A model generated the notes under the pieces. That model was not told where the DNA came from. It ran no database searches and saw nothing but the letters and a program-made list of their open reading frames with translations. The position numbers and the translations under genes are program-made. Below, one piece after another: positions 1 to 14,141 of a stretch of DNA of 32,261 nucleotides. How positions within the stretch are numbered: position 1 is the first letter of the stretch; each line of letters opens with the position of its first letter. The stretch covers positions 1 through 32,261 of the forward strand of contig JADFMB010000008.1 in the NCBI GenBank assembly GCA_022564115.1, read 5' to 3'. Source of the DNA: Pseudomonadota bacterium. Its GTDB lineage: Bacteria > Pseudomonadota > Alphaproteobacteria > Rhodospirillales > Casp-alpha2.

Positions 1-313
1 TGTAGACCGACTTCACCATGCGCTCGTTGATGTTGGTCTTCAGCTCATCAAGGCTGTCGACCCAGTCACCGGCATAGAAATCGGAAAGCGTACATTCCAC
101 CGGTGTGTGATCGACGTTCATCACAGGAACTTTGCCGTGCCGCGCCTTGGTCGAGGCCGTGCCCTTGCCGACTTTTTGGAAAGTCGTCGAGGAGCCAAGG
201 ATGTTGTTCTTGACCCGTACCGTGTTGCGCAGCTTGGTGCCCATCCGCTGGTATTGCAGATGGACATCCGACTGAAAGTTCTTGATGAACGACGATTCGA
301 TAGTAATCGACAT
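1..313 (-). CDS. Phage major capsid protein, N-terminal part (gene continues beyond the left edge)
   Basis: Open minus frame from ATG at 313: MSITIESSFIKNFQSDVHLQYQRMGTKLRNTVRVKNNILGSSTTFQKVGKGTASTKARHGKVPVMNVDHTPVECTLSDFYAGDWVDSLDELKTNINERMVKSVY..., typical of podovirus capsid proteins. RBS AAAGGAG 8 nt upstream. Not in the ORF track because it has no stop inside the window. Confidence 0.87.
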   Translation of the reverse strand, partial: MSITIESSFIKNFQSDVHLQYQRMGTKLRNTVRVKNNILGSSTTFQKVGKGTASTKARHGKVPVMNVDHTPVECTLSDFYAGDWVDSLDELKTNINERMVKSVY

Positions 314-349
314 CGATCATTCTCCTTTCATGGATGAAAGAGGGTTTGG

Positions 350-374
350 AAAAAACCCGCCGGCGCGGTTATGG
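350..374 (-). terminator. Possible weak intrinsic terminator in the capsid leader
   Basis: Minus strand reads AACCGCGCCGGCGGGTTTTTTCC: short bulged stem followed by six T, about 37-60 nt upstream of the capsid ATG. Confidence 0.35.
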
Positions 375-699
375 TCGGGCCAAAGGCCGGACCGCCAGTT
401 GACGGGAATGGCTGCCGGCCGGGCCGCAATCGGGTGCCTGTCAAAGGCATCCGGTCGCGGTTCTCCGGCGGGGAAAAACGTTGGGAAGGTAATAAAAAAA
501 AATTAAAAAACGCCGGCCCGTCCGAATAGGCTCGCCCCCGTTTGGGAACGTGTGAGGACCATCACTGCCATAGGTCGGAAAGCGCGGTTAAAAGGTGCAA
601 GCAAACAAAACTTAACCTGCCCCGGTAAAACGATTATTATTCGCCCCAACTAGGGGGGCATGAATGCCCACATAACGGCAATCAGGAGTAGGCGTTACA

Positions 700-1635
700 A
701 TGTCAACAGATGAAAAATTCCGCTTAGTCACCCGAAGTGATTTCGACGGCCTGGTCTGCGCCGTCCTGCTCGAGGATATGGACTTGATCGACGATATCCT
801 GTTCGTCCACCCGAAGGACATGCAGGCAGGCACCGTGCCGATTTCAAAAATAGATATCACTACCAACCTGCCCTACGTTTCGGGCTGCCATCTGGCCTTC
901 GACCACCACGAAAGCGAAGTCGTCCGGCTGGGCGAGAAATTCGACAACCATATCATCGACCCCGATGCGCTGTCGGCGGCACGGGTGGTCTATGATTATT
1001 ACGGCGGCAAGGAAGCCTTCCCCAACGTCGATGAGGATTTGTTGGAAGCGGTGGACAAGGGCGATTCCGCCCAGTTCACGATGGAAGAAGTGCTCAGGCC
1101 CACGGGCTGGGCGCTGTTGAACTTCCTCATGGACGCCCGCACCGGGCTGGGCCGGTTCCGGGGCTTCCGCATTCCCAATTACGAGCTGATGATGGAACTG
1201 ATCGAGCGCTGCCACGATCATAACATCGACCAGATCCTCGAACTGCCCGACGTCAAGGAGCGGGTGGACCTCTATTTCGAGCAGCAGGAAAAATTCATCG
1301 AACAGGTCAAGCGTTGCACCACCATCCATCAAAATCTGGTTGTTCTGGACCTGCGCGATGAGGAAACCATCCATGCCGGCAATAGGTTCATAATTTACAC
1401 GCTCTTCCCCGACTGCAATATCTCCATGCACGTGATGATGGGGCGCGAACAGTTGAATACCGTTTTTGCCGTCGGCAAATCCATTTTCGACAAAAGCTCG
1501 AAAACCGATATCGGCCAGTTGATGCTTGAATACGGCGGCGGCGGGCACCACGCGGCGGGGACCTGTCAGATAGACACGTCCGAGGCCGAAAAGGTGCAGC
1601 GCGAGCTGACCGCCAGGATCACCGCCGACGGCTGA
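700..1635 (+). CDS. DHH/DHHA1-family phosphoesterase (exopolyphosphatase-like)
   Basis: 311 aa; N-terminal SDFDGLVCAVLL, FDHHES (DHH motif), C-terminal GGGGHHAAGTCQ (DHHA1-type). SD-like AGGAG upstream. Confidence 0.88.
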   Translation: MSTDEKFRLVTRSDFDGLVCAVLLEDMDLIDDILFVHPKDMQAGTVPISKIDITTNLPYVSGCHLAFDHHESEVVRLGEKFDNHIIDPDALSAARVVYDYYGGKEAFPNVDEDLLEAVDKGDSAQFTMEEVLRPTGWALLNFLMDARTGLGRFRGFRIPNYELMMELIERCHDHNIDQILELPDVKERVDLYFEQQEKFIEQVKRCTTIHQNLVVLDLRDEETIHAGNRFIIYTLFPDCNISMHVMMGREQLNTVFAVGKSIFDKSSKTDIGQLMLEYGGGGHHAAGTCQIDTSEAEKVQRELTARITADG

Positions 1636-1664
1636 ACGTTTGCGGGCGTCTCCGACCCTTAGCC

Positions 1665-2312
1665 TTATAGGAAATCGGCGAAGTTGATGGCGTAGTGCGC
1701 GGCGATGCCCGGCAGCACCGAGCCCGTGCGCAGATAAAGCGCCATCAGCGCCACCCCGGCGATGCCGGCGACGACCATCGACGTCAGTCCGTGCGACCAG
1801 TGGATCAAGGCAAAGACGACCGCCGATACGACGATCAAGGCGGCGGTTCCGGGCAGATAGCGGACTACCATGACGGCGAAGACGCCGCGAAAGACGAATT
1901 CCTCGCTCACCGCCGTCAACGCCAGCCCGAAGGTGATGTCCGTCCAGTAAAGAAGCCCCGGGGTCAACGGCGGATAGCGGAACAGCACCAGGCTTTCGAT
2001 CTCGATCGGCACCAGGACGCGGAAGAAATAATCGGCGAAGATCACCGCCCCGGTGCAGAGCAGGGCCAAGGTCACGGCGTCCTTTAGGGGGGCCTTCAGC
2101 TTTATCGTGCTTGCGGCGGCCCGGCGAAGCGGAACCACCGCGAAAAGAATAATCAGGGCCAATATCTTCGATCCGTAATCGGCGGCCAGCCACTGGGGCG
2201 CGGTCTCGATGTTCAGAAAGATAAAATCGTTGAGAAAAAAGGGCGCCGTCAAGAGCGCCAGCAATCCCATGTCGGGCCAAAATGACGGTGTTTTCGGTTT
2301 TTCCTCGATCAT
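1665..2312 (-). CDS. CPBP-family intramembrane metalloprotease
   Basis: 215 aa multi-TM protein with SEEFVFRG (EExxxR), ALIHW and AAHYAINF motifs of CPBP (Abi) proteases. Confidence 0.85.
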   Translation of the reverse strand: MIEEKPKTPSFWPDMGLLALLTAPFFLNDFIFLNIETAPQWLAADYGSKILALIILFAVVPLRRAAASTIKLKAPLKDAVTLALLCTGAVIFADYFFRVLVPIEIESLVLFRYPPLTPGLLYWTDITFGLALTAVSEEFVFRGVFAVMVVRYLPGTAALIVVSAVVFALIHWSHGLTSMVVAGIAGVALMALYLRTGSVLPGIAAHYAINFADFL

Positions 2313-2382
2313 TCGCCGCTCCCTAACGGACGTCCATCTTGTCCTAAATCTGGGAACTTAACGAGGGTTTAGATCGCCCGGC

Positions 2383-2619
2383 TTACTTCGAACCCCGGGG
2401 GGATTTGCGCCAATTAGTCGGTTTACAATAAACCGTCGGGCGAAACACACTGGGTTCAAATGTATGCGTGTCTGGGCCCATATCCAAAAAATAAACCCCT
2501 TTTGTTTCTGCGGCTATTTTTTTGGCGGTCTCGACGCATTTTTCCCTGTCGGCATAGATGACGGGCGGGGGCTTTTCCGCTCCTGCTATCCCGAGATTGA
2601 TAATCAGCAACCAATACAT
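2383..2619 (-). CDS. Small secreted or membrane-anchored two-Cys protein, copy 2 of tandem pair
   Basis: MYWLLIINLGIAGAEKPPPVIYADREKCVETAKKIAAETKGVYFLDMGPDTHTFEPSVFRPTVYCKPTNWRKSPRGSK from ATG 2619. The track ORF starts at a TTG at 2655. Clear paralogue of 2674-2913. Confidence 0.7.
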   Translation of the reverse strand: MYWLLIINLGIAGAEKPPPVIYADREKCVETAKKIAAETKGVYFLDMGPDTHTFEPSVFRPTVYCKPTNWRKSPRGSK

Positions 2620-2673
2620 GAATTGAAGTTTGTGCCACTTCTTGGGAAGTATCAAGCGGGTCCATCGCCCGGT

Positions 2674-2913
2674 TCACTTGGAAGGCTTGTAAGATTTTCT
2701 CCGCCATTTCGCGGGTTTGCAAAAAACCGTCGGGCGAAATACCGCGGGTTCAGTCCTATGGGTTTCCGGCCCCATCTCCTGGTAGTAAAGCCATTTATTT
2801 TCGCCGGCGATTTTCTTGGCCATTTGTACACAATTTTCCCTGTCGGCATAGATGACGGGCGGCGGACTTTCCACTCCAACTAGCCCAAGATAAACTATTA
2901 ACAACCATTCCAT
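2674..2913 (-). CDS. Small secreted or membrane-anchored two-Cys protein, copy 1 of tandem pair
   Basis: MEWLLIVYLGLVGVESPPPVIYADRENCVQMAKKIAGENKWLYYQEMGPETHRTEPAVFRPTVFCKPAKWRRKSYKPSK from ATG 2913 (track ORF from TTG 2949). Hydrophobic N-terminus plus conserved C and CKP. Confidence 0.7.
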   Translation of the reverse strand: MEWLLIVYLGLVGVESPPPVIYADRENCVQMAKKIAGENKWLYYQEMGPETHRTEPAVFRPTVFCKPAKWRRKSYKPSK

Positions 2914-2945
2914 GAATTGAAGTGTGTGCCACTTCTTGGGAAGTA

Positions 2946-3476
2946 TCAAGCGCGTCTTTCGCGCCGTTTTTTGGGAAGCCGGAGGTTGCCGTCGGGATCT
3001 TGAATAATGATTTCATTGTTATCGAGGGTTCCGGGGACGGTCGGTATAGATTCCATACGGTCGCGAGTTTCAAAGGGCCGTTTGGGCAGCACAGGTTCTT
3101 TTCGATCGGGTGGCCGGTCGCTTCCGTCGTTGGTATCCGCATCCGATTCCGGTTCGGCGGCGAGGGTCGCGCCCAGGGTGGTAAGGGTCTCGCCGCCGGG
3201 GTTGATTTGACCGTCGACCCGAAGCCGGTTGCGTTTCTGGAATCGCCGGATCGCCTCGTCCATGCGAAGACCAACGAAACCCGTCACGCCGTCGGTTTCA
3301 TCGAGGTTAAGATCGCCGGCGCGGCCCAGAAGGCTTTCCACCTTGGCGACGTCGCGCCGGCCATTCCGCCCTTCCGTGCCGACGGAATCTTGGATTCGGA
3401 AGGGGTTGTTGAAATTCATGATTTCGGGCTCGGTTTTGGGCGCGGCCAATACGCGGCCGAAAGGATCGGGATGCAT
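2946..3476 (-). CDS. Peptidoglycan-binding-domain protein of the phage module
   Basis: VAKVESLLGRAGDLNLDETDGVTGFVGLRMDEAIRRFQKRNRLRVDGQINPGGETLTTLG matches the PG_binding_1 repeat pattern (AIRxFQxxNxLxVDG). RBS AGGAGA before ATG 3476. Confidence 0.78.
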   Translation of the reverse strand: MHPDPFGRVLAAPKTEPEIMNFNNPFRIQDSVGTEGRNGRRDVAKVESLLGRAGDLNLDETDGVTGFVGLRMDEAIRRFQKRNRLRVDGQINPGGETLTTLGATLAAEPESDADTNDGSDRPPDRKEPVLPKRPFETRDRMESIPTVPGTLDNNEIIIQDPDGNLRLPKKRRERRA

Positions 3477-3489
3477 AGGGTGTTCTCCT

Positions 3490-3530
3490 ATATATAAAGA
3501 AAAGGACGCCGGCCCCCGGGGGCCGGCGCC
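3490..3530 (-). terminator. Intrinsic terminator downstream of the scaffold gene
   Basis: Perfect 22-bp palindrome CGCCGGCCCCCGGGGGCCGGCG (3507-3528), followed on the minus strand by TCCTTTTCTTTATATA. Confidence 0.7.
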
Positions 3531-3586
3531 CGAAGGGGGAGCGCGCCAGGGAAGGGGACGCGCTCAACCCCAAACCGGGCAATCGC

Positions 3587-4336
3587 TCAGTCCGGAAAAA
3601 GGCGCTTGAAACCGTCCTGCACCCGCTGAACGAAACTGGGGTCATGGTCGCGCCAATAGCGGGGGTCCTGCATCATCCGTTTCAGGCCCTCCTCGCTTGA
3701 GCCTTCATCGCCGGCTCCGGCGCCTTCGATCAGGCCCGGCTCACCGGAACTCATCATCTTGTGCATGGTCAATACTCCTTCATAGGTGCTGGAAAGGGCC
3801 TGGAAGACTTCATCGGGGAACTTGGCCCGGCCCCATTGCTTGAGTTGCCCCGCCATCTCGCGCCATTTCTCCTCGCCGCCGAAGCGCTGCGCCAAGCGGT
3901 CGATCTGGGCCTGGGCGTGAAACTCGGACGCCACCCCGGTCACCAAGGGCAGCATGTGCTCCGCCGCCAGGTCATAGACGGTCTGCGCCTGTTCCTGGCT
4001 GAACCCGGCCGCGTGCAGTTGGGCGTTGACGGCCGGGTCACTGGCGAAAAGCTCGTTTTCCGTCTTGATGTCGTAACCCTCGGCGTCGTCGGGGACGCCC
4101 TGCCCCGCCAGCGCCCCCAACTTTTGCTCAAGCGACCGATAGGACTTCACCAGGCTGTCGGTGCGCACTTCGCCCTTGTCCTGGTCCCAGAATTTGTCCG
4201 GCAGGCCGGGCGGCGGTGTCGGCCCCGCCCCGTTTTCCGGGGCCTCGCCTTGGGGGGGAATTGCGGAGGGCGGTTGCGCGGCAGCGCCGGACCCCGCTCC
4301 GTCCTCGGGCATGGTTTCAAGCAAGTTGTTGGTCAT
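3587..4336 (-). CDS. Phage capsid assembly (scaffolding) protein, T7 gp9-like
   Basis: 249 aa from ATG 4336: acidic, Pro/Gly-rich N-terminus, PDKFWDQDKGEVRTDSLVKSYRSLEQKLG, coiled central region. Position between connector and capsid genes is typical for scaffold. Confidence 0.8.
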   Translation of the reverse strand: MTNNLLETMPEDGAGSGAAAQPPSAIPPQGEAPENGAGPTPPPGLPDKFWDQDKGEVRTDSLVKSYRSLEQKLGALAGQGVPDDAEGYDIKTENELFASDPAVNAQLHAAGFSQEQAQTVYDLAAEHMLPLVTGVASEFHAQAQIDRLAQRFGGEEKWREMAGQLKQWGRAKFPDEVFQALSSTYEGVLTMHKMMSSGEPGLIEGAGAGDEGSSEEGLKRMMQDPRYWRDHDPSFVQRVQDGFKRLFPD

Positions 4337-4386
4337 GGGGTATCTCCCTTTTGTGGTGGTCGTGAAAAGATTTAAGGAAAAGCCGT

Positions 4387-4674
4387 TTAGCCGCCGTCCC
4401 GTCCGCGGGTGACGAGCATGGCGATATGGGCGACCAGTTGTCTTTGGCCTTCCAGGTGGCGGAGAAGGGTGTCGGGCGCACCGGGACCGAGGGCACGCTC
4501 GAGGGTGATGGCGCGAAGATACGCCAGCACCTTGTCGCCGTCGGTGCCGCGAAAACAACGGGCGGCGGCAAGGGCGAGCGCCTTGTCGTCTTCGAGGGTT
4601 TCGGCGGACAAAGGGGTGTTTCCCGATTCGAACCAGTCCCAGCCCGGGTCTTGCCTTGTGTCATCCCTCGCCAT
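4387..4674 (-). CDS. Bbp19-like phage protein
   Basis: 95 aa; DDKALALAAARCFRGTDGDKVLAYLRAITLERALGPGAPDTLLRHLEGQRQLVAHIAMLV resembles the Bbp19 family next to podophage connectors; overlaps the portal stop. Confidence 0.7.
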   Translation of the reverse strand: MARDDTRQDPGWDWFESGNTPLSAETLEDDKALALAAARCFRGTDGDKVLAYLRAITLERALGPGAPDTLLRHLEGQRQLVAHIAMLVTRGRDGG

Positions 4675-6250
4675 CGGTTGTCTCCAGTTCGACTTCGGTT
4701 ACGGCGCCGGTCAGATCCTCGATCACGTCGCCGATGTCTTGGGCCAGGGTCTCGTTGTCCAACAGACCGTCCAACCCGTCGGCAACCGGGTCGGAAAGCT
4801 CGCGGATCAGCTCGCCGGGGACGCCGAAGGCGCGCCCCAGCCAGCGGGCGGCCGCGCCCTGGTCGACGGCGGCCAAACCTTCCGGTCCGAGGGCGCGGAC
4901 GGATTCGAGCCACTGCAGGGTATTCTGGGCGTCCTGGATGGCCTGATGACGGGCCAGCGGCGATTGGTATTCGAGATCGACAAGACGGCCGTCGACCCGG
5001 AACTCGGCGATTTCTCCGCGCCGGCCGAGGATGCTCAAAGCGCGGTCGACCAAGGGGGTCAACAGTTCCGATTGTAGCCGGCCGTAAGTGGCGCCCAACA
5101 CCCGCACCATGTCGGATGACCGTTCCAGGACTTCCGTGGCGGTCATTTTGGGGCTGTCCACCGGCCCCAGGTTGTTGGCCAGAAGCGCTTGTCGGATGCG
5201 GCCGCGAAGATCGGTCAGCACGATCTCGGAAACGTCGAAGCGGCCGGGAGCCTCCAGCGGCGTCAGCCCGGCCGAGCCGACGGCCTTGGGAATGATGGTC
5301 CCTGGCGTCAATTTGATGGTCGCCGGGTTCAGCACTCCGTCGTCGTCGGCCTGCCATATCCCGGTGACGGCGATGGAGGCGTTTTTCAGCACCAGCTCCA
5401 CCACCTTGTTGGCGGTCTTGATGTCCGGCAGCGCCTTCATCACCGGGGATCGGCCGTATATTTCCCCCGGCGTCTTGAGCCAGCGGAAATTGATGAACGG
5501 CGACTGCGAAAACCGTCCCTCGGCGAGCACGCTGGGATCGCCCATGGATACGGAGTCGGTCTCGGCCACCGCCAGGTAGGCGAAACCGAAGTCATCGGGG
5601 ATCACGGCTTCGATCACCGGCACCTGGGAGTCGGGGTCCTTGGCCACGCGGTTCCAAAATTCCTCGGGAAGGTTGGCCTTTGGAAAACGGCTTTTCAATT
5701 GCCCCGGCGTCAGCTCCGAGCGCCGGTAGGTGGTGTCCAGCCGCCCGAAGGCGCTTTCTTCGAAAACCACATGGCTCAACGGGATGGCGGTAAAGCGGAA
5801 TGCTGAAGGCTCGCCGGGGGGCGCTTCCTCGAACAACAGCGACGCCGTGCCGGCCGTCACCAGGTCCAGGTAGCATTGATGCATTTCGACGGCGAAATTG
5901 GAACGGTCGAAGTGGGATTTTAGCGCTCTCGCGGAGCGCTCCAGTTCTTCGGCCATGGCTTCGCGTTCGGCATCGGTGGCATCGGGGCCTGGGGTGAAAC
6001 CGAACCAGCGCGCCCAGGGCGGCGTCAATTGGGCGAGCAGGCTGGCCGCGAGCTGATCGACCGCATCAGGCGCGGTGCCGTCAAACAGTTTGTCGGTTTT
6101 CTTCTCGCCCGGTTGCGTCTGGCGGATGATTCCGTCCCGTTGCGGCAGCGCATAGTCATAACATTCCTGCCAATGGCTTTCCCAAACCCCCCGCCGGTCC
6201 TTGGCATGGCGGTAGCGTTCGATGACGCCTTTCGGTGTGATGTCAGTCAT
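4661..6250 (-). CDS. Phage head-tail connector / portal protein (T7 gp8-like)
   Basis: 529 aa from ATG 6250: MTDITPKGVIERYRHAKDRRGVWESHWQECYDYALPQRD... LFDGTAPDAVDQLAASLLAQLTPPWARWF..., characteristic of podovirus head-tail connecting proteins. Confidence 0.92.
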   Translation of the reverse strand: MTDITPKGVIERYRHAKDRRGVWESHWQECYDYALPQRDGIIRQTQPGEKKTDKLFDGTAPDAVDQLAASLLAQLTPPWARWFGFTPGPDATDAEREAMAEELERSARALKSHFDRSNFAVEMHQCYLDLVTAGTASLLFEEAPPGEPSAFRFTAIPLSHVVFEESAFGRLDTTYRRSELTPGQLKSRFPKANLPEEFWNRVAKDPDSQVPVIEAVIPDDFGFAYLAVAETDSVSMGDPSVLAEGRFSQSPFINFRWLKTPGEIYGRSPVMKALPDIKTANKVVELVLKNASIAVTGIWQADDDGVLNPATIKLTPGTIIPKAVGSAGLTPLEAPGRFDVSEIVLTDLRGRIRQALLANNLGPVDSPKMTATEVLERSSDMVRVLGATYGRLQSELLTPLVDRALSILGRRGEIAEFRVDGRLVDLEYQSPLARHQAIQDAQNTLQWLESVRALGPEGLAAVDQGAAARWLGRAFGVPGELIRELSDPVADGLDGLLDNETLAQDIGDVIEDLTGAVTEVELETTDGEG

Positions 6251-6252
6251 CT

Positions 6253-6462
6253 CTATTCTCCCAACAAGGATTTCCGGCGCGGCGCCTTGTCGCCGAGGCT
6301 CAAAAGCCCCCGGGCCGACGTGGCAATGGTTCCGGCGCGCCCGCGGCGGCGGCGTTCGATGTTTTCGAGGCGCCGTTTCCTGTTCTCTTCCTCCGGGTCC
6401 GGCAGGGGCGGCGGCGGTGGGGGTGGCGGCGGTGGTTTCGGGGCGCTGAAGAATCCACCCAT
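6253..6462 (-). CDS. Small Pro-rich phage protein
   Basis: MGGFFSAPKPPPPPPPPPPLPDPEEENRKRRLENIERRRRGRAGTIATSARGLLSLGDKAPRRKSLLGE; AGGAGG RBS; immediately upstream of portal; C-terminal RRRGRAGTI...KSLLG as in small podophage proteins. Confidence 0.75.
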   Translation of the reverse strand: MGGFFSAPKPPPPPPPPPPLPDPEEENRKRRLENIERRRRGRAGTIATSARGLLSLGDKAPRRKSLLGE

Positions 6463-6617: not shown

Positions 6618-7013
6618 TTATTTATAATTTTTTAGGAATTTATAAAGATTCCAGGGGGTTATGATCCAATGGGCATGGATGCCGAGAATGCGCTTGATCG
6701 CCTCGACGCAAGTGTAGAGTCCCCAAGGGGCGGATTTTTTGCAAACCGGACAAAGGAGCCAAGGGACGACTCGGAATCCCTGGCCCCGATAACATTTCAT
6801 GAGCTCCATGCCGGTGACGCCTTCGAGCACGGCGATCTCGGTTCGGTGCGAAAGGGGGTTGTATAGGATCCACCGGTCGCGGTTTTCGATCACCACGAAG
6901 CAATGACGAAAACCGGGTTTCAGTATCCTCAGCCATTTGAGATCGGCCTGGCCCGAGAACACCACCAGGGCGAATCCTGGTTCGAAATGACCGCTGGCCG
7001 CCGTGGCGGTCAT
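6618..7013 (-). CDS. Phage-module conserved protein of unknown function (possible papain-like fold)
   Basis: 131 aa; GFRHCFVVIENRDRWILYNPL ... SAPWGLYTCVEAIKRILGIHAHWIITPWNLYKFLK; 4-nt overlap with the upstream gene. Confidence 0.65.
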   Translation of the reverse strand: MTATAASGHFEPGFALVVFSGQADLKWLRILKPGFRHCFVVIENRDRWILYNPLSHRTEIAVLEGVTGMELMKCYRGQGFRVVPWLLCPVCKKSAPWGLYTCVEAIKRILGIHAHWIITPWNLYKFLKNYK

Positions 7014-7375
7014 TCGATAATTCCCTTTTTTTTCAATACGGTGGTCAGTTTATCCAGGGCTTCGTCCCAGAGGCGCGCTGGACGTTCCTCGTCCCGGCAG
7101 CGGGGATCGGGTGGCCGTTCGCAAACACCGAAGAAAGCCAACACCCGCAAATGCTCGGCAGTGATCTGGTGTTTCCTCAAAAGGCCAACCGCAGCCCGGT
7201 AAAGGTCATCGGGGTCGCAGGGCCGGGTAATGGAACCGGGGGTTTCTTTGAAACGGGCCCCTTCTTCGCGGGCCCGCTGGCACCGCATGAACCAGAACCA
7301 GGCTTCCTCCGCATCGACGAAAGGGGCCGTCGGGGTGTCGTAATAGGGCCGGGGGATAAAGCGGGTGCGGGGCAT
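7010..7375 (-). CDS. Phage-module conserved protein of unknown function
   Basis: 121 aa; MPRTRFIPRPYYDTPTAPFVDAEEAWFWFMRCQRAREEGARF...; translationally coupled to 6618-7013. Confidence 0.65.
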   Translation of the reverse strand: MPRTRFIPRPYYDTPTAPFVDAEEAWFWFMRCQRAREEGARFKETPGSITRPCDPDDLYRAAVGLLRKHQITAEHLRVLAFFGVCERPPDPRCRDEERPARLWDEALDKLTTVLKKKGIIE

Positions 7376-7424
7376 TGAAGGGCTCCAATTTAGAAATGAG
7401 GTAACCTAATACATGAACAAAGAA

Positions 7425-7521
7425 GGAACATTATTTATATATCAGGGTTAAGTCCTACGTCAATAGATAAAAAGAAAAATGTTCCTAATGACGGAAGGGC
7501 GCTTATATATGACAATGTTCC
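7425..7521. promoter_or_regulatory. Three copies of AATGTTCC (candidate operators) in the divergent intergenic region
   Basis: GGAACATT 7425-7432 (inverted), AATGTTCC 7478-7485, AATGTTCC 7514-7521, the last ending 1 nt before the ATG at 7523. Confidence 0.5.
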
Positions 7522-7522
7522 C

Positions 7523-8155
7523 ATGTTGAAACACGCCGATGTCTGGAGAGCCATCGACCGGCTGGCCCGGGAGTACGGGTACTCCGCCTCCGGGCTGGCC
7601 CGGCAGGCCGGCCTTGACCCGACGACTTTCAACAAGAGCAAACGGGTCACCCGTGAGGGCAAGCTCCGTTGGCCGAGCACGGAAAGCGTTTCCAAGGTGC
7701 TCGCGGCGACGGGCGCCAGCTTTGCTGAATTTGTTTCATTCACGAGCGACAGCGAAAGCGCCGGCGTCTACCGGAATATTCCGTTAATCGGTTTTGTTCA
7801 GGCGGGCGTTTCGGGATTTTTCGACGATGCCGGTTATCCCACGGGCGGGGCTTGGGATGAGATCCCGTTTCCCGGTCTCGGCGATCCCTACGCCTATGCC
7901 CTGGAGGTCACGGGCGACAGCATGGAGCCGGTGTTCCGTGACGGCGATTCGATCATCGTTTCACCCCAGGCCAATATCCGCCGCGGCGACCGTGTCGTTG
8001 TCAAAACCAAGGGCGGTGAGGTCATGGTCAAAGTGCTGCTTCGCCAATCGGCCCGCAAGGTGGACCTGCAATCCCTCAATCCCAACCACGAAGACCGTAG
8101 CCTGTCGATAGAAGAAATTGACTGGATGTCCCGCGTGGTTTGGGCGAGCAAATAG
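7523..8155 (+). CDS. HTH + S24 peptidase-domain regulator (LexA/CI-like)
   Basis: N-terminal HTH (YGYSASGLARQAGLDPTTFNKSKR); C-terminal GFVQAGVSGFF (Ala-Gly site), VTGDSMEPVFRDGDSIIV (Ser), VMVKVLLR (Lys). Confidence 0.88.
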   Translation: MLKHADVWRAIDRLAREYGYSASGLARQAGLDPTTFNKSKRVTREGKLRWPSTESVSKVLAATGASFAEFVSFTSDSESAGVYRNIPLIGFVQAGVSGFFDDAGYPTGGAWDEIPFPGLGDPYAYALEVTGDSMEPVFRDGDSIIVSPQANIRRGDRVVVKTKGGEVMVKVLLRQSARKVDLQSLNPNHEDRSLSIEEIDWMSRVVWASK

Positions 8156-8227: not shown

Positions 8228-9811
8228 TCAGTGGGCGAGGTCTTCACCGGCGATGGCGCGCTTGATCAGATTCCGTGTTTCCTGCAACCCGTAAAGGGCG
8301 ATGAAGGAACCCATCCGGGGCCCTTGGGATTGGCCGAGAAGGATCTCGTAGAGCGCCTTGAACCAGGCCTTAAGGTCGGGGAAGGGGTGGCGCTTGCCGA
8401 CTTCATAGACTTCCGTTTGGATGGTTTCGGCGTCGGCGTCGTCGGCAATTCCGCCCAGCACCGATAACAGATCCTCGAGCGCCGCCTTCTCGTCGTCGGT
8501 CGCCTTTCGGTAATTCTTCGCCGGCTTGACGAAATCCCTGTAATAGTTGATGGCGTAATCGAGGAGCCTGTCCAGGATGGGCGCCGCTTCCAGCGAAGCA
8601 TCGGACCGGTAGCGGGAAATAAAATGCCAAAGCACCGCCTTGTCCTCGGTATGACAGACGCTGGCTAGGTTGAGGAGAATGCTGAAACTTAAGTAAGCTT
8701 CCTCGTGCGGCGGGGCACCCTGATGAATGTGCCAGGCGGGATTATCCAGCTTCTTGGCGTCGTCCTGTTGGGGCAAACTCGAAAGATGGCTTAGATAATC
8801 GTCGACGGTACGGGGGATGATGTCGAAAAACAACCGCTTCGCCGTTTTCGGCTTCTGGTACATGAACAGCGACAGGCTTTCCGGCGGCGCGTAGCGCAAC
8901 CATTCCTCCACCATCAGCCCGTTGCCCCGGGATTTCGAAATCTTCTCGCCGTTTTCGTCGAGGAAAAGCTCATAGGTGAATCCCACCGGCGGCTCGCCAC
9001 CCAGGATGCGGCAGATTTTCCCCGACAGCTTCACCGAATCGATCAGGTCCTTGCCCGACATCTCGTAATCCACGTCGAGCGCCGTCCAGCGCATGGCCCA
9101 GTCGGCCTTCCATTGCAGCTTGCAATGGCCGCCGGTGACCGGCACCTCGGTCTTGGCGCCGTCCTCGTCCTCATAGACGATGGTCCCGGCATCGGTGTCG
9201 CGCTCGACCACCGGCGCCTGCAGCACTTGGCCCGTTTTCGGGCACACCGGCAAAAAGGGGCTGTAGGTGGCGCGGCGTTCCTCGCCCAAGGTCGGCAGGA
9301 TGACGTTGATGACCGCGTCATAGCGTTCCAGCACCCCAAGCAGCGCTTCGTCGAAGCGGCCGCTCTTGTAACATTCGGTAGAGCTCAGGAATTCATAATC
9401 GAACCCGAAATCATCCAGGAACGCCTTCAGCCGGGCGTTGTTATGGTGGCCAAAGCTTTCGTGCGTCCCGAAAGGATCGGGGATGGTGGTCAGCGGCATG
9501 CCCAGGTGCTCGGCCATCATGTCGGGGTTGGGGATGTTGTCGGGTACCTTCCTGAGCCCGTCCATGTCGTCGGAAAAAGTGATCAGTTTGCTCGGCAGGT
9601 CGGACAGCAGCGAAAAAGCGTGACGCACCATGGACGTCCGGGCGACCTCGCCGAAGGTGCCGATGTGCGGCAGGCCCGAAGGCCCGTACCCGGTTTCGAA
9701 CAGCACAAAGCCCTTTTCCGGCGTCTTGCCGCCGACGCGCTTCAACAGGCTTCGCGCCTCGGCGAAAGGCCAGGTCTTGGCGTTCTGGGCGTGGTCCTTG
9801 AGGTCGGTCAT
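8228..9811 (-). CDS. lysK: Lysine--tRNA ligase, class I
   Basis: 527 aa from ATG 9811; [21 protein letters not shown] (HIGH-like) and KISKSRGNG (KMSKS-like); class I LysRS signature. Confidence 0.95.
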
Positions 9812-9813
9812 GG

Positions 9814-11337
9814 TTATTTCCAGATCGGCTTGCCCGTGCCGAGCAGGCCGTAGGCTTCCCACTTGCGGGTTACTTCGTCGATGATGTCGTCGGTCATGCG
9901 GATCTTGCGGCCCCAATCGCGGCGGGTTTCGGGCGGTATCTTGGTCGTCGCGTCGATCCCCATTTTGGAGCCCAGCCCCGATTCCGGCGACGCGAAATCC
10001 AGATAGTCGATAGGCGTGTTCTCGATCACCGTGATGTCGCGGGCGGGGTCGACGTTGGTGGAAATCGCCCAGATCACGTCTTTCCAATCGCGGGCGTCGA
10101 TGTCGTCGTCAACGACGATGACGAACTTGGTGTACATGAACTGCCTCAGGTACGACCACACCGCCATCATGATCCGCTTGGCATGGCCGGGGTAGGCCTT
10201 CTTGATGGAAACGACTCCGACCCGGTACGAACACCCCTCGGGCGGCAACCAGAAATCGACGATTTCGGGGAACTGCTGTTGGAGCAAAGGCACGAAAACA
10301 TCATTAAGGGCCTCGCCCAGCACCGAAGGCTCATCGGGCGGGCGGCCGGTAAAAGTCGAGAGGTAAATCGGGTCCTTGCGCATGGTGATGGCGCTGATGG
10401 TAAAGACCGGGAACGGCTCGACGGCGTTGTAATAACCGGTGTGGTCCCCATAGGGGCCTTCGTCGCCGTAATCATCCAGCGACACGTGGCCTTCGAGCAC
10501 AATCTCGGCCTCGGCCGGCACCTTCAAGGGCACGGTCTTGCAGTTCACCAATTCCACCTTCTTGCCCCGGAGCAGCCCGGCGAACTGGTATTCCGACAAC
10601 GTATCGGGAACCGGGGTGACGGCGGCCAGGATAGTCCCCGGATCGGCGCCGATGACGGCGGCGGCGGGCAGGGGCTCGGTCTTTTTGTCCTTCCACCGGG
10701 CGTGATGCTGCGCCCCCCCCCGGTGCTTGAGCCAGCGCATGTAGGTGGTGTCGGGGCCGGTGACCTGCATGCGGTAGATGCCGAGGTTGTAGTTGTCCCG
10801 GGCGTCGCCGCCTTTCTTGCCGGCCTCGGGGCCCAAGGTCACCACCAGCGGCCAGGTGATCACCGGGGCCGGTTCACCGGGCCAGCAGGTTTGAACCGGC
10901 AGCCGCGAAAGGTCGATGTCGGCCCCTTTCAACACCACTTCCTGGCACGGCGCCTTGGTGACCGTTTTCGGCTTCATGGCCATGACGGTCTTCACCATTG
11001 GCAGCGCCTTTACCGCGTCCCGCCAGCCTTCCGGGGGGTCGGGCTGGCGTAGAAAAGCCAGGGTCTCGCCGATTTCGCGAAGCTGGTCCGGTTCCCGGTT
11101 CATCCCCCAGGCGACCCTCTCGATGGTGCCGAAAAGGTTGACCAGTACCGGCATGCCGAAAGGCGCTCCTTCGTCGTCGACGACGTTTTCGAACAGGACC
11201 GCCGGCCCGCCTTCGGCAAGCAAGCGGGTCTGGATTTCGGTCATCTCTAGGTTGGGGGAAACCGGCTCGCCGACGCGTACCAAACGGCCGTCCTTCTCTA
11301 GGCGGTCGATAAAATCTCTCAAGGAAGAAAAGGCCAT
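9814..11337 (-). CDS. ubiD: UbiD-family decarboxylase
   Basis: 507 aa; [72 protein letters not shown]. Confidence 0.93.
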
Positions 11338-11601: not shown

Positions 11602-13398
11602 ATGGCGAAGAAAACGAAAAAAACGTCTGAACAAAACCAAGCCTCGAGTTTTGAGAGGCTGATCGAAATCGGCATCGCCCTTTCGGCGGAGAAGGATCCC
11701 AGCCGCCTTATGGAAACCATTCTTCTCGAGGCCAAGGAACTCTCCAATGCCGACGGCGGGACACTTTACCTCAAGACCGAAGACAACAACCTGAAATTCG
11801 AGATCGTGCGTACGGATTCCCTCAAGATCGCCATGGGCGGAACCACCGGCAAGGAAATCACCTTTCCGCCGGTGCTCCTCTATGATCCGGAAACGGGCAG
11901 GGAAAACAAAGCCAACGTCGCCAGTTGCGCCGCCCTGACGGGGAAATCCATCAACATCCCCGATGCCTACGATTCGAAGGACTTCGATTTCTCCGGCACG
12001 CGGAAATTCGACGAGGGGACGGGATATCGGTCGAAATCGTTCCTGACCGTGCCGATGAAGAATTCCCAGGACGAGATAATCGGCGTCCTTCAGCTTCTCA
12101 ATGCCCTGGACAAAGATACCGGCGAGGTTATCCCCTTCAGCAGCGATATCCAGCCCTTGATCGAAGCCCTGGCGTCGCAGGCCGCCGTGGCGCTGGACAA
12201 CAAGCAGCTTTTGGACGCGCAAAAGCTTTTACTTGATTCGTTCATCAAATTGATTGCGTCCGCCATCGACGCCAAATCGCCCTATACGGGCGGACACTGC
12301 CAACGGGTTCCGGAATTGACCATGATGCTGGTCAAGGCCGTATGCGAGGTCAAAGATGGACCGTACGCCGATTTCGATCTCAACGCGGACGATTGGTACG
12401 AATTGCAAATTGCCGCGCTGCTTCACGATTGCGGCAAGGTGACGACGCCTGAATACGTGGTCGACAAGGCGACCAAGCTTGAAACCATCTATGACCGCAT
12501 CCATGAAATCCGCACCCGTTTCGAAGTTGTCAAACGCGAAGCGGAGATCGATTACCTGAAGGCCGTGGCGGACGGCAAAGGGGATCCGGAGAAGCGCCGC
12601 GCAGAATTGGATGAACGGCTGACCAAGCTGGACGATGACTTCGCCTTTATCGCCGAATCCAACATCGGCGGTGAATTCATGGCCCCGGAAAAAATAGAAC
12701 GGGTCAAGGAAATCGCCAACATCCAATGGACCCGAACTCTCGATGACCGGCTCGGCATTTCCTATGAAGAAAAGAAACGCAAGAACAGGACCAAGGCGGA
12801 AAAATTGCCGGTTGTCGAAAACCTGCTCAGCGACCGGGACGACCACATCATTTACCGCGAAGAGGAGACAGTCGCGGCCCAGGACGACCATTACGGTTTC
12901 AAGCTCGATGTGCCGGAACTCAAGTTCAATCTCGGCGAGGTCTACAACCTTTCCATCGCCCGGGGCACCTTGACCGCCGAGGAACGCTTCAAAATCAACG
13001 ACCATATCGTGCAGACGATCGTCATGCTGGAGCAGCTTCCGTTCCCCGAACATTTGAAACGGGTTCCCGAATATGCCGGCGGCCACCACGAAAAGATGGA
13101 CGGCACCGGGTACCCGAAGAAGCTCAATAAAGACGACATGTCGATTCCGGCCCGGATCATGGCCATTGCCGATATCTTCGAGGCGTTGACCGCCGCCGAC
13201 CGCCCCTACAAGGCGGCGAAGACCCTGAGCGCAAGCGTCAAGATCATGTCGTTCATGAAAAAGGACTCCCATATCGACGGCGATCTGTTCGAGATTTTTT
13301 TGACTTCCGGCGTTTACAAGGATTACGCCGATCAGTTCCTGGAAAAGGACCAGATCGACGAGGTCGATATCTCCGAGTACCTTGAAGGCGACGACTGA
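11602..13398 (+). CDS. GAF + HD-GYP domain phosphohydrolase (cyclic-di-GMP phosphodiesterase-like)
   Basis: N-terminal GAF-like region (ADGGTLYLKTEDN...), SPYTGGHCQRVPELT, LLHDCGKVTTPEYV, GGHHEKMDGTGYPKKL, MAIADIFEALTAADRPYK. Confidence 0.9.
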   Translation: MAKKTKKTSEQNQASSFERLIEIGIALSAEKDPSRLMETILLEAKELSNADGGTLYLKTEDNNLKFEIVRTDSLKIAMGGTTGKEITFPPVLLYDPETGRENKANVASCAALTGKSINIPDAYDSKDFDFSGTRKFDEGTGYRSKSFLTVPMKNSQDEIIGVLQLLNALDKDTGEVIPFSSDIQPLIEALASQAAVALDNKQLLDAQKLLLDSFIKLIASAIDAKSPYTGGHCQRVPELTMMLVKAVCEVKDGPYADFDLNADDWYELQIAALLHDCGKVTTPEYVVDKATKLETIYDRIHEIRTRFEVVKREAEIDYLKAVADGKGDPEKRRAELDERLTKLDDDFAFIAESNIGGEFMAPEKIERVKEIANIQWTRTLDDRLGISYEEKKRKNRTKAEKLPVVENLLSDRDDHIIYREEETVAAQDDHYGFKLDVPELKFNLGEVYNLSIARGTLTAEERFKINDHIVQTIVMLEQLPFPEHLKRVPEYAGGHHEKMDGTGYPKKLNKDDMSIPARIMAIADIFEALTAADRPYKAAKTLSASVKIMSFMKKDSHIDGDLFEIFLTSGVYKDYADQFLEKDQIDEVDISEYLEGDD

Positions 13399-13415
13399 GG
13401 CCGGAGATTTTCCAA

Positions 13416-14141
13416 ATGTCCCCGGACACCCTTCGCCGCGCCCTGTCCTATCCTTATGAAATCCCTGCGAATTCCTACGTCGTTAACGGAAAGACGCACC
13501 AAGTGCTTAACCCCTCGGCCCCGATGCCCGACGTTTCCGGAAGGCGCCCGGTCCTTGCCGTCGGCTCCAATCAATCCCCCGAACAATTGATCCGCAAATT
13601 CTACGGATCGGACCTGGGCCCGATCCCGGTGATTCGGGCCCGGCTGAAGGATTTCGATATCGTCTATTCGCCGCACGTGGCTTCCTATGGGTCGATCCCG
13701 GCCACCCTCGGGCATTCCCCCGGCACCCGGGTCACGCTTTTCGTAACCTGGCTGACGCCGGAACAGGAAGCCCGCATGCATGAAACCGAAATCCCCACGG
13801 GGAATTACCATTTCGGGAAATTGGACGCCATAGAACTGCAATTGGACTTCGGCCCCGCCATGACGTCGGCTTATGTTTATTCGTCCCGCCGCGGATCTCT
13901 AACTCGGGACGGCTTACCAGTCGCACTGGCCGCCGTTCGGGCCGAAAACCGGATATGGCCTTCGCTCAACCAGGAAGAAATCCAGAACCACGCCCGGGAC
14001 CTAACGGCCGCCGGCCAACCTCTCGAAGCCTTTATTAGAGCGGCGATAGAGGATGTTTCGGCCAGGCGGGAAAGGACTCGGGCCCTGATGTCGGACGGCC
14101 TGCGGTTAAATTATTCCGGTTTTACCCCGATAGAAATTTGA
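13416..14141 (+). CDS. Conserved hypothetical protein, possible gamma-glutamylcyclotransferase-like fold
   Basis: LAVGSNQSPEQLIRKF ... ARLKDFDIVYSPHVASYGSIPATLGHSPGTRVTLFVTWLTPEQEARMHETEIPTGNYHF resembles the GGCT pattern YGSNLS...PGxxVxGxxxxLtxexxxxLxxxE...Y. Confidence 0.7.
   Translation: MSPDTLRRALSYPYEIPANSYVVNGKTHQVLNPSAPMPDVSGRRPVLAVGSNQSPEQLIRKFYGSDLGPIPVIRARLKDFDIVYSPHVASYGSIPATLGHSPGTRVTLFVTWLTPEQEARMHETEIPTGNYHFGKLDAIELQLDFGPAMTSAYVYSSRRGSLTRDGLPVALAAVRAENRIWPSLNQEEIQNHARDLTAAGQPLEAFIRAAIEDVSARRERTRALMSDGLRLNYSGFTPIEI

Follow-up and report, generated by a model that had tools for sequence, protein, structure and literature searches.

A podovirus-type particle gene cluster of Alphaproteobacteria with a conserved LexA box, probably kept as a gene transfer agent

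The stretch of DNA analysed here (the window, 32,261 nucleotides) is the whole of contig JADFMB010000008.1 (C67) from the 2.66-Mb draft genome GCA_022564115.1 of a member of the Rhodospirillales (Alphaproteobacteria), an assembly of 236 contigs that is 85% complete. Its left end carries a cluster of podovirus-type head genes on the minus strand, together with two small operon genes (up121 and up131), a divergent S24 regulator gene and a host flank. An initial annotation, made from the sequence alone, had pointed out that scaffold and capsid are separated by a CPBP protease and a DHH phosphoesterase gene, and had offered a cargo (moron) insertion, a rearranged prophage or a domesticated particle resembling a gene transfer agent (GTA) with interleaved cellular genes as possible explanations. 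The features of the region are:

2..313, minus strand: major capsid protein, N-terminal 104 codons (PF19821, Phage_capsid_2, 1.5e-28; phrog_3437); the remainder is on contig C219 at 13274-13741, minus strand
700..1635, plus strand: DHH-type phosphoesterase, host gene inside the cluster (DHH motif; in Pfam only a sub-threshold DHHA1 match)
1665..2312, minus strand: CPBP (Rce1-like) membrane protease, host gene (PF02517, 1.5e-16)
2383..2655, minus strand: small open reading frame (ORF) A, a paralogue of 2674-2949 and of L038:6683-6931
2674..2949, minus strand: small ORF B, a paralogue of small ORF A
2946..3476, minus strand: peptidoglycan-binding protein PGB1 (PF01471, PG_binding_1, 3.7e-07), with a 64% identical second copy at L038:6964-7563
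3587..4345, minus strand: scaffold or capsid assembly protein of the T7 gp9 type (PF05396, 5.3e-20)
4387..4674, minus strand: Bbp19-like protein (PF25181, 6.8e-14)
4661..6253, minus strand: portal (head-tail connector) of the T7/BPP-1 type (PF12236, 5.8e-143)
6253..6462, minus strand: Pro-rich small protein, kept ahead of the portal in 69/100 loci
6618..7013, minus strand: up131, operon gene 2, with H37, C38, C102 and E104 invariant in the alignment
7010..7375, minus strand: up121, operon gene 1, all-helical and cluster-linked, a candidate regulator (model pLDDT 80)
7415..7429, minus strand: LexA (SOS) box GTTCCTTCTTTGTTC at the up121 operon promoter, the sole exact match in the window
7434..7463, minus strand: promoter-like TTGACG (7458-7463) and TATAAA (7434-7439) beside the LexA box, read from the sequence
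7523..8155, plus strand: divergent regulator with helix-turn-helix and S24 autoprotease parts (PF00717, 1.1e-24), the conserved left neighbour, retained where the cluster is lost
8228..9990, minus strand: LysRS-like gene (label from sequence reading), a conserved host flank that keeps its place upstream of S24 whether the cluster is present or not

Pfam and PHROG family matches recovered every gene that had been named, with the exception of the DHH gene, whose assignment rests on its motif. The left end of C67 falls inside the capsid gene, where the contig stops, and contig C219 opens in the same gene and carries the rest of the particle genes. When the two capsid pieces were aligned to the 272-aa capsid of a congener (L040), residues 1-100 were found on C67 and 118-272 on C219, with about 13-17 codons lost between the contigs. 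After the capsid, C219 carries phrog_18004, the tail tube proteins A and B (TTA and TTB), a gp14-like protein, the fibre, a second pair of peptidoglycan-binding gene and small ORF, a T7-type TerL (NF033889, 427 bits) and, last, a small holin-like protein with a cell-wall hydrolase. The proposed extension to the left thus recovered the capsid C-terminus, tail, terminase and lysis genes; no terminase is visible on C67, as had been said, and this absence is a limit of the assembly. Judged from the predicted genes, this genome has the full particle gene set but for the gap in the assembly. Neither an integrase nor a replication family was matched in this genome's own cluster (C67 and C219), which contains several small ORFs without assigned function and whose relatives were checked in this respect by synteny only.

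The cluster is widespread among relatives. Using the portal as query, 58 of 119 relatives were strong carriers, mostly with a single copy and 55-80% identity. TerL was found in 46 of these 58 and tracks the portal (Fisher 4e-16), and up121 is present in 54/58 portal-positive versus 13/61 portal-negative relatives (Fisher 2e-16). A scan of GTDB r220 contigs gave 503 relatives confirmed by tblastn, and the best 80 of these matches include Azospirillum, Magnetospirillum, Terasakiella, Skermanella, Caenispirillum, Telmatospirillum, Defluviicoccus, Marivibrio and Micavibrio as well as many further Rhodospirillales. From an even sample of the class, 47 of 385 genomes carry portals at 55-74% identity, in about 26 family codes that do not belong to the order of the window. 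Synteny was read in stretches of at most 20 kb by tblastn with one query set, which misses diverged small genes, and the identity-band counts were taken by hand from tables. The recurrent order is S24 / up121 - up131 - portal - Bbp19 - scaffold - capsid - dec89 - TTA - TTB - fibre - TerL - SleB (cell-wall hydrolase), and this order with S24 as left neighbour is constant over GC contents of 0.31-0.70 and genome sizes of 1.1-5.9 Mb. Plasmid records contained portals at 24-31% identity only. Two 0.9-Mb genomes (G398, locus L260, and G305, locus L262), and also G186 and G475, have a more divergent portal (44-47% identity), and in G398 most of the cluster lies within 14 kb.

The initial annotation had proposed synteny and vertical phylogeny in relatives as a check, and besides the order kept class-wide the portal indeed follows rpoB. 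In 65 genomes the portal and rpoB trees are correlated with a Mantel r of 0.73, a value reached in 0 of 5000 permutations (permutation maximum 0.45); they share 27 of 60 splits versus a random expectation of 0.2, and 22 of 29 supported portal splits are recovered in rpoB. For a concatenate of portal, TerL and TTB from 31 genomes the correlation with rpoB is 0.86. The GC content at third codon positions (GC3) of the portal also follows that of the host rpoB (r=0.95, range 0.17-0.96). Six phage portals fall outside the 72-member clade of the cluster (support 93), and identity to the closest real phages is 30-36%. A single phage record exceeds 36%, the unannotated 5-kb faecal scaffold MT838907.1 (L147, GenBank 'Bacteriophage sp.'), whose portal shares 74% identity with the portal of a 1.6-Mb genome in the class sample. 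The portals of G016, G027 and G417 group together against rpoB (support 98) and are candidates for horizontal transfer; in G016 and G027 no S24 match was obtained at the cut-off used.

The dN/dS values (NG86) are 0.03-0.20 for the portal and 0.03-0.18 for TerL; many pairs have dS >1, so the argument is borne by the less diverged pairs from Azospirillum, Defluviicoccus and Magnetospirillum. The fibre is variable and fast-evolving (0.10-0.45). The Walker A motif FRNAGKS and the catalytic acids of TerL are at least 97% conserved in 49 sequences, and reading frames are open nearly everywhere among carriers. By these trees and sequence measures the cluster behaves as a host gene set that is passed down largely with the cell.

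A second line of evidence is the promoter. The sequence GTTC-N7-GTTC (GAAC-N7-GAAC) is the published LexA site of Alphaproteobacteria (PMC3091678). As 1.6 exact boxes are expected per 32 kb, the single one in the window is insignificant on its own and the evidence lies in its conserved position: of 156 loci, 82 have an exact box in the S24-up121 interval and a further 36 have one with a single mismatch, some of these loci not being independent as the same contig is included twice. Shuffled intervals gave 1 exact and 12 one-mismatch boxes. The box density in this interval is 109x that in the rest of the same loci. Forward boxes stand a median of 38 bp before the up121 start, and 51 loci have a TTGAC on the upstream side of the box. 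No LexA box was found at S24 loci without up121, which assigns the box to the operon rather than to S24. In a positive control 12 lexA loci showed one exact box each, just upstream of lexA on the strand of the gene (seven minus-strand loci were judged from box coordinates). An intact lexA was not found in the window's own draft, 85% complete as it is, and is present in all 12 relatives tested. CtrA boxes were not seen in the promoter region (0 versus 1.2 expected).

The position of CPBP and DHH between scaffold and capsid, from which the initial annotation had started, is borne out, and its origin becomes clear from relatives without the cluster. The congener G001, which has an S24 at 96% identity, reads UbiD - LysRS - S24 - CPBP - DHH without any intervening cluster gene, its contig ending at DHH; in G005, G011 and G024 S24 stands directly before DHH, and G030 has up121/up131 remnants ahead of DHH. 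As CPBP and DHH adjoin S24 in such cluster-free relatives, both are host genes that belong to this neighbourhood. Two further paralogues of the DHH gene occur in the same genome (C210 7525-8441 and C194 9733-10574, with 74% and 67% DNA identity). A join error within 313-2383, considered earlier as a trivial cause of the split, was rejected because the congeners G003 and G006 and other, independent relatives have DHH at the same place and because CPBP-DHH directly follow S24 in the congener without cluster. The scaffold-capsid joint is also the loosest of the short joints: over 102 loci with the capsid downstream it ranges between 51 bp and 12.2 kb, with a median of 1.1 kb and lineage-dependent filler, compared with medians of 6-78 bp at portal-Bbp19, Bbp19-scaffold, capsid-dec89 and TTA-TTB. 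That scaffold and capsid are at most 400 bp apart in 35 of these loci would fit a standard phage that recently gained CPBP and DHH as a moron, but the S24-CPBP-DHH order in the cluster-free congener speaks against this candidate, which we regard as extremely unlikely. DHH/CPBP between scaffold and capsid is not constant across relatives, and since relatives with contiguous scaffold and capsid and no DHH/CPBP occur, the 2-kb interruption is a lineage-specific state in which host and phage-derived genes interdigitate. The initial annotation had named such relatives as refuting its observation; they leave domestication untouched, which is based on class-wide co-inheritance.

With a probability of roughly 0.78 we therefore favour, from the sequence comparisons, that a podovirus-derived gene set was domesticated early in alphaproteobacterial evolution and is kept as an SOS-induced GTA, because the replicon is lost, the address fixed, the evolution host-like, the packaging motor kept and the promoter under LexA control. 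From the three original options the domesticated GTA-like particle with interleaved cellular genes is thus strongly supported, and the moron insertion is not borne out. Of the features by which GTAs are recognised, those that can be read from sequence are found here, namely a caudoviricete-derived particle gene set, co-evolution with the host in a clade apart from phages with few conflicts, no autonomous replication or integration genes in the own cluster and retention by selection as functional genes (dN/dS, GC3). DNA damage would lead to RecA-stimulated cleavage of LexA and free the operon promoter, whereupon up121 as putative regulator and the structural genes would be expressed. TerL would then fill the heads with cellular DNA and not with a phage genome, there being no phage replicon; the holin-like protein and the cell-wall hydrolase would act as a lysis pair that releases short-tailed particles, and neighbouring cells would take up the packaged DNA. 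Particle formation, packaging, release and transfer are here inferred from the genes. In a broader form, which we consider somewhat less probable but still likely, the cluster would be a class-wide, podovirus-type, LexA/SOS-controlled GTA whose acquisition predates the divergence of many alphaproteobacterial orders, that in others was displaced or excluded by the RcGTA type at a later time, and that forms the main GTA exchange route in Rhodospirillales-like bacteria, gut and genome-reduced lineages among them.

Several observations weigh against a GTA. SOS control is common among prophages too, and the sequence signals would look no different if the particle were a PBSX-like killer or the DNA-filled heads had some other use. 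Disagreement with rpoB is seen at five supported splits of the portal tree (five also in the concatenate), which indicates a degree of transfer or errors in the trees. The cluster is missing from about half of the relatives, remnants are seen in G030, G050 and G108, and the modules are unlinked or permuted in G015 and G026. Moreover, A. brasilense CBG497 showed no lysis with mitomycin C and, according to the authors, lacks further phage ORFs (PMC3899980), although the cluster is present in other strains of A. brasilense.

The strongest competing reading is a domesticated podovirus acting as a bacteriocin-like killing particle similar to PBSX, which would be SOS-induced, package host DNA incidentally and kill relatives, with no role in gene transfer. 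The LexA box, the lysis genes and the fast-evolving fibre would suit it, but the conserved TerL catalytic residues together with portal, scaffold and capsid, under strong purifying selection where measured, exceed the needs of a head-independent killer, and we consider it unlikely. Repeated integration at one site by a true temperate podovirus family would explain the conserved address, the SOS control and the hundreds of such contigs classed as viral in IMG/VR. Against it stand the host-like tree, GC3 and copy number, the missing integrase and replication genes in the own cluster and the absence of phage relatives above 36% other than the faecal scaffold; also, the best 80 IMG/VR contigs are at most 25.6 kb long and have an S24 neighbour in 43 cases. 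Such a family is very improbable, and an active prophage was rejected in view of the lack of close phage relatives and of an integrase in the own cluster. Least of all do we believe in an ordinary decaying prophage remnant split by host genes: host genes do lie inside the cluster and remnants exist in some genomes, but the frames are open nearly everywhere, the frequent frameshifts that would have marked ordinary decay were not seen, dN/dS is far below 1 and the order is constant across many families and GC contents.

Compared with known systems, the best reading of the domesticated cluster is that it is independent of both RcGTA and BaGTA. Like the RcGTA family (Rhodogtaviriformidae, type I) it is a phage-derived head-tail cluster of Alphaproteobacteria that is largely vertical, under purifying selection and without autonomous replication genes, but RcGTA is siphovirus-like whereas the present cluster has a T7-type portal, scaffold, PF19821 capsid, tail tube and TerL. 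We know of no direct LexA-boxed operon promoter as a trait of RcGTA. The RcGTA marker GTA_TIM (PF13547) is absent from the own genome, and in the class sample cluster and marker never occur together (0/47 carriers versus 36/338 others, p=0.013). This agrees with a published survey in which Rhodospirillales, Azospirillales and Acetobacterales had 0 RcGTA-like clusters (PMC6821227), but the mutual exclusion is modest, its p value is uncorrected and it is confounded by phylogeny. BaGTA (Bartogtaviriformidae, type II) is likewise an independent domestication in Alphaproteobacteria; it is confined to Bartonella and has an HK97-type capsid, in contrast to PF19821 here, and a linked run-off replication origin (PMC9662315). 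FpGTA of Faecalibacterium, with two operons, has been claimed as the first podovirus-like GTA-like element (PMC12946183) and differs by its Gram-positive host, our comparison being by description only. Pelagibacter/HTVC010P-like and other T7-type podoviruses are the nearest phage homologues of the portal and tail tube proteins, but at 30-36% identity they stand outside the clade and have phage genomes of 34-39 kb. With no phage RNA polymerase or DNA replication genes found in the own cluster, its likeness to T7-like podoviruses (Autographiviridae) is one of structural homology only.

For Azospirillum, DNA of about 10 kb released by mitomycin has been described in A. lipoferum and B510, and a GTA of unidentified genes was suspected (PMC3899980). 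Other Azospirillum species, including A. doebereinerae, carry the S24-up121-up131-portal-scaffold module. The particles were reportedly siphovirus-like in the original electron microscopy, which argues against identity with the present cluster. From the genes of other Azospirillum species and strains the cluster is a candidate for the source of these particles, and named genes and a promoter are now available for probing the old suspicion.

No description of the cluster was found in the open-licence literature searched, and relative to it the GTA type is apparently new. If the GTA reading is true, it would be a further independent phage-to-GTA domestication after RcGTA, BaGTA and the spirochaete GTA and, as far as the searched literature goes, the first podovirus-type GTA in Proteobacteria, with gene exchange tied to DNA damage. 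It would occupy a section of the Alphaproteobacteria from which RcGTA is absent. The IMG/VR loci L288-L367 and MT838907.1 are recorded as viral and are fragments of the cellular cluster, as thus holds for many 'viral' IMG/VR contigs and at least one GenBank 'phage'.

Among the smaller features, the AlphaFold model of up131 is confident (pLDDT 89). The predicted folds of up131 and up121 had no significant match in the PDB; the Q21 antiterminator was among the best weak similarities of up121 (TM about 0.4, E 2-3) and was kept as a lead only. A motif GGGAACATTGTCATATA immediately upstream of the S24 start (window 7506-7522) is conserved with or without the cluster and is possibly the operator of S24 itself. 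The peptidoglycan-binding gene and its small ORF are duplicated, near the scaffold (window 2383-3476) and again before TerL (L038 6683-7563), and homologues of PGB1 or PGB2 occur in about 13 of 100 loci.

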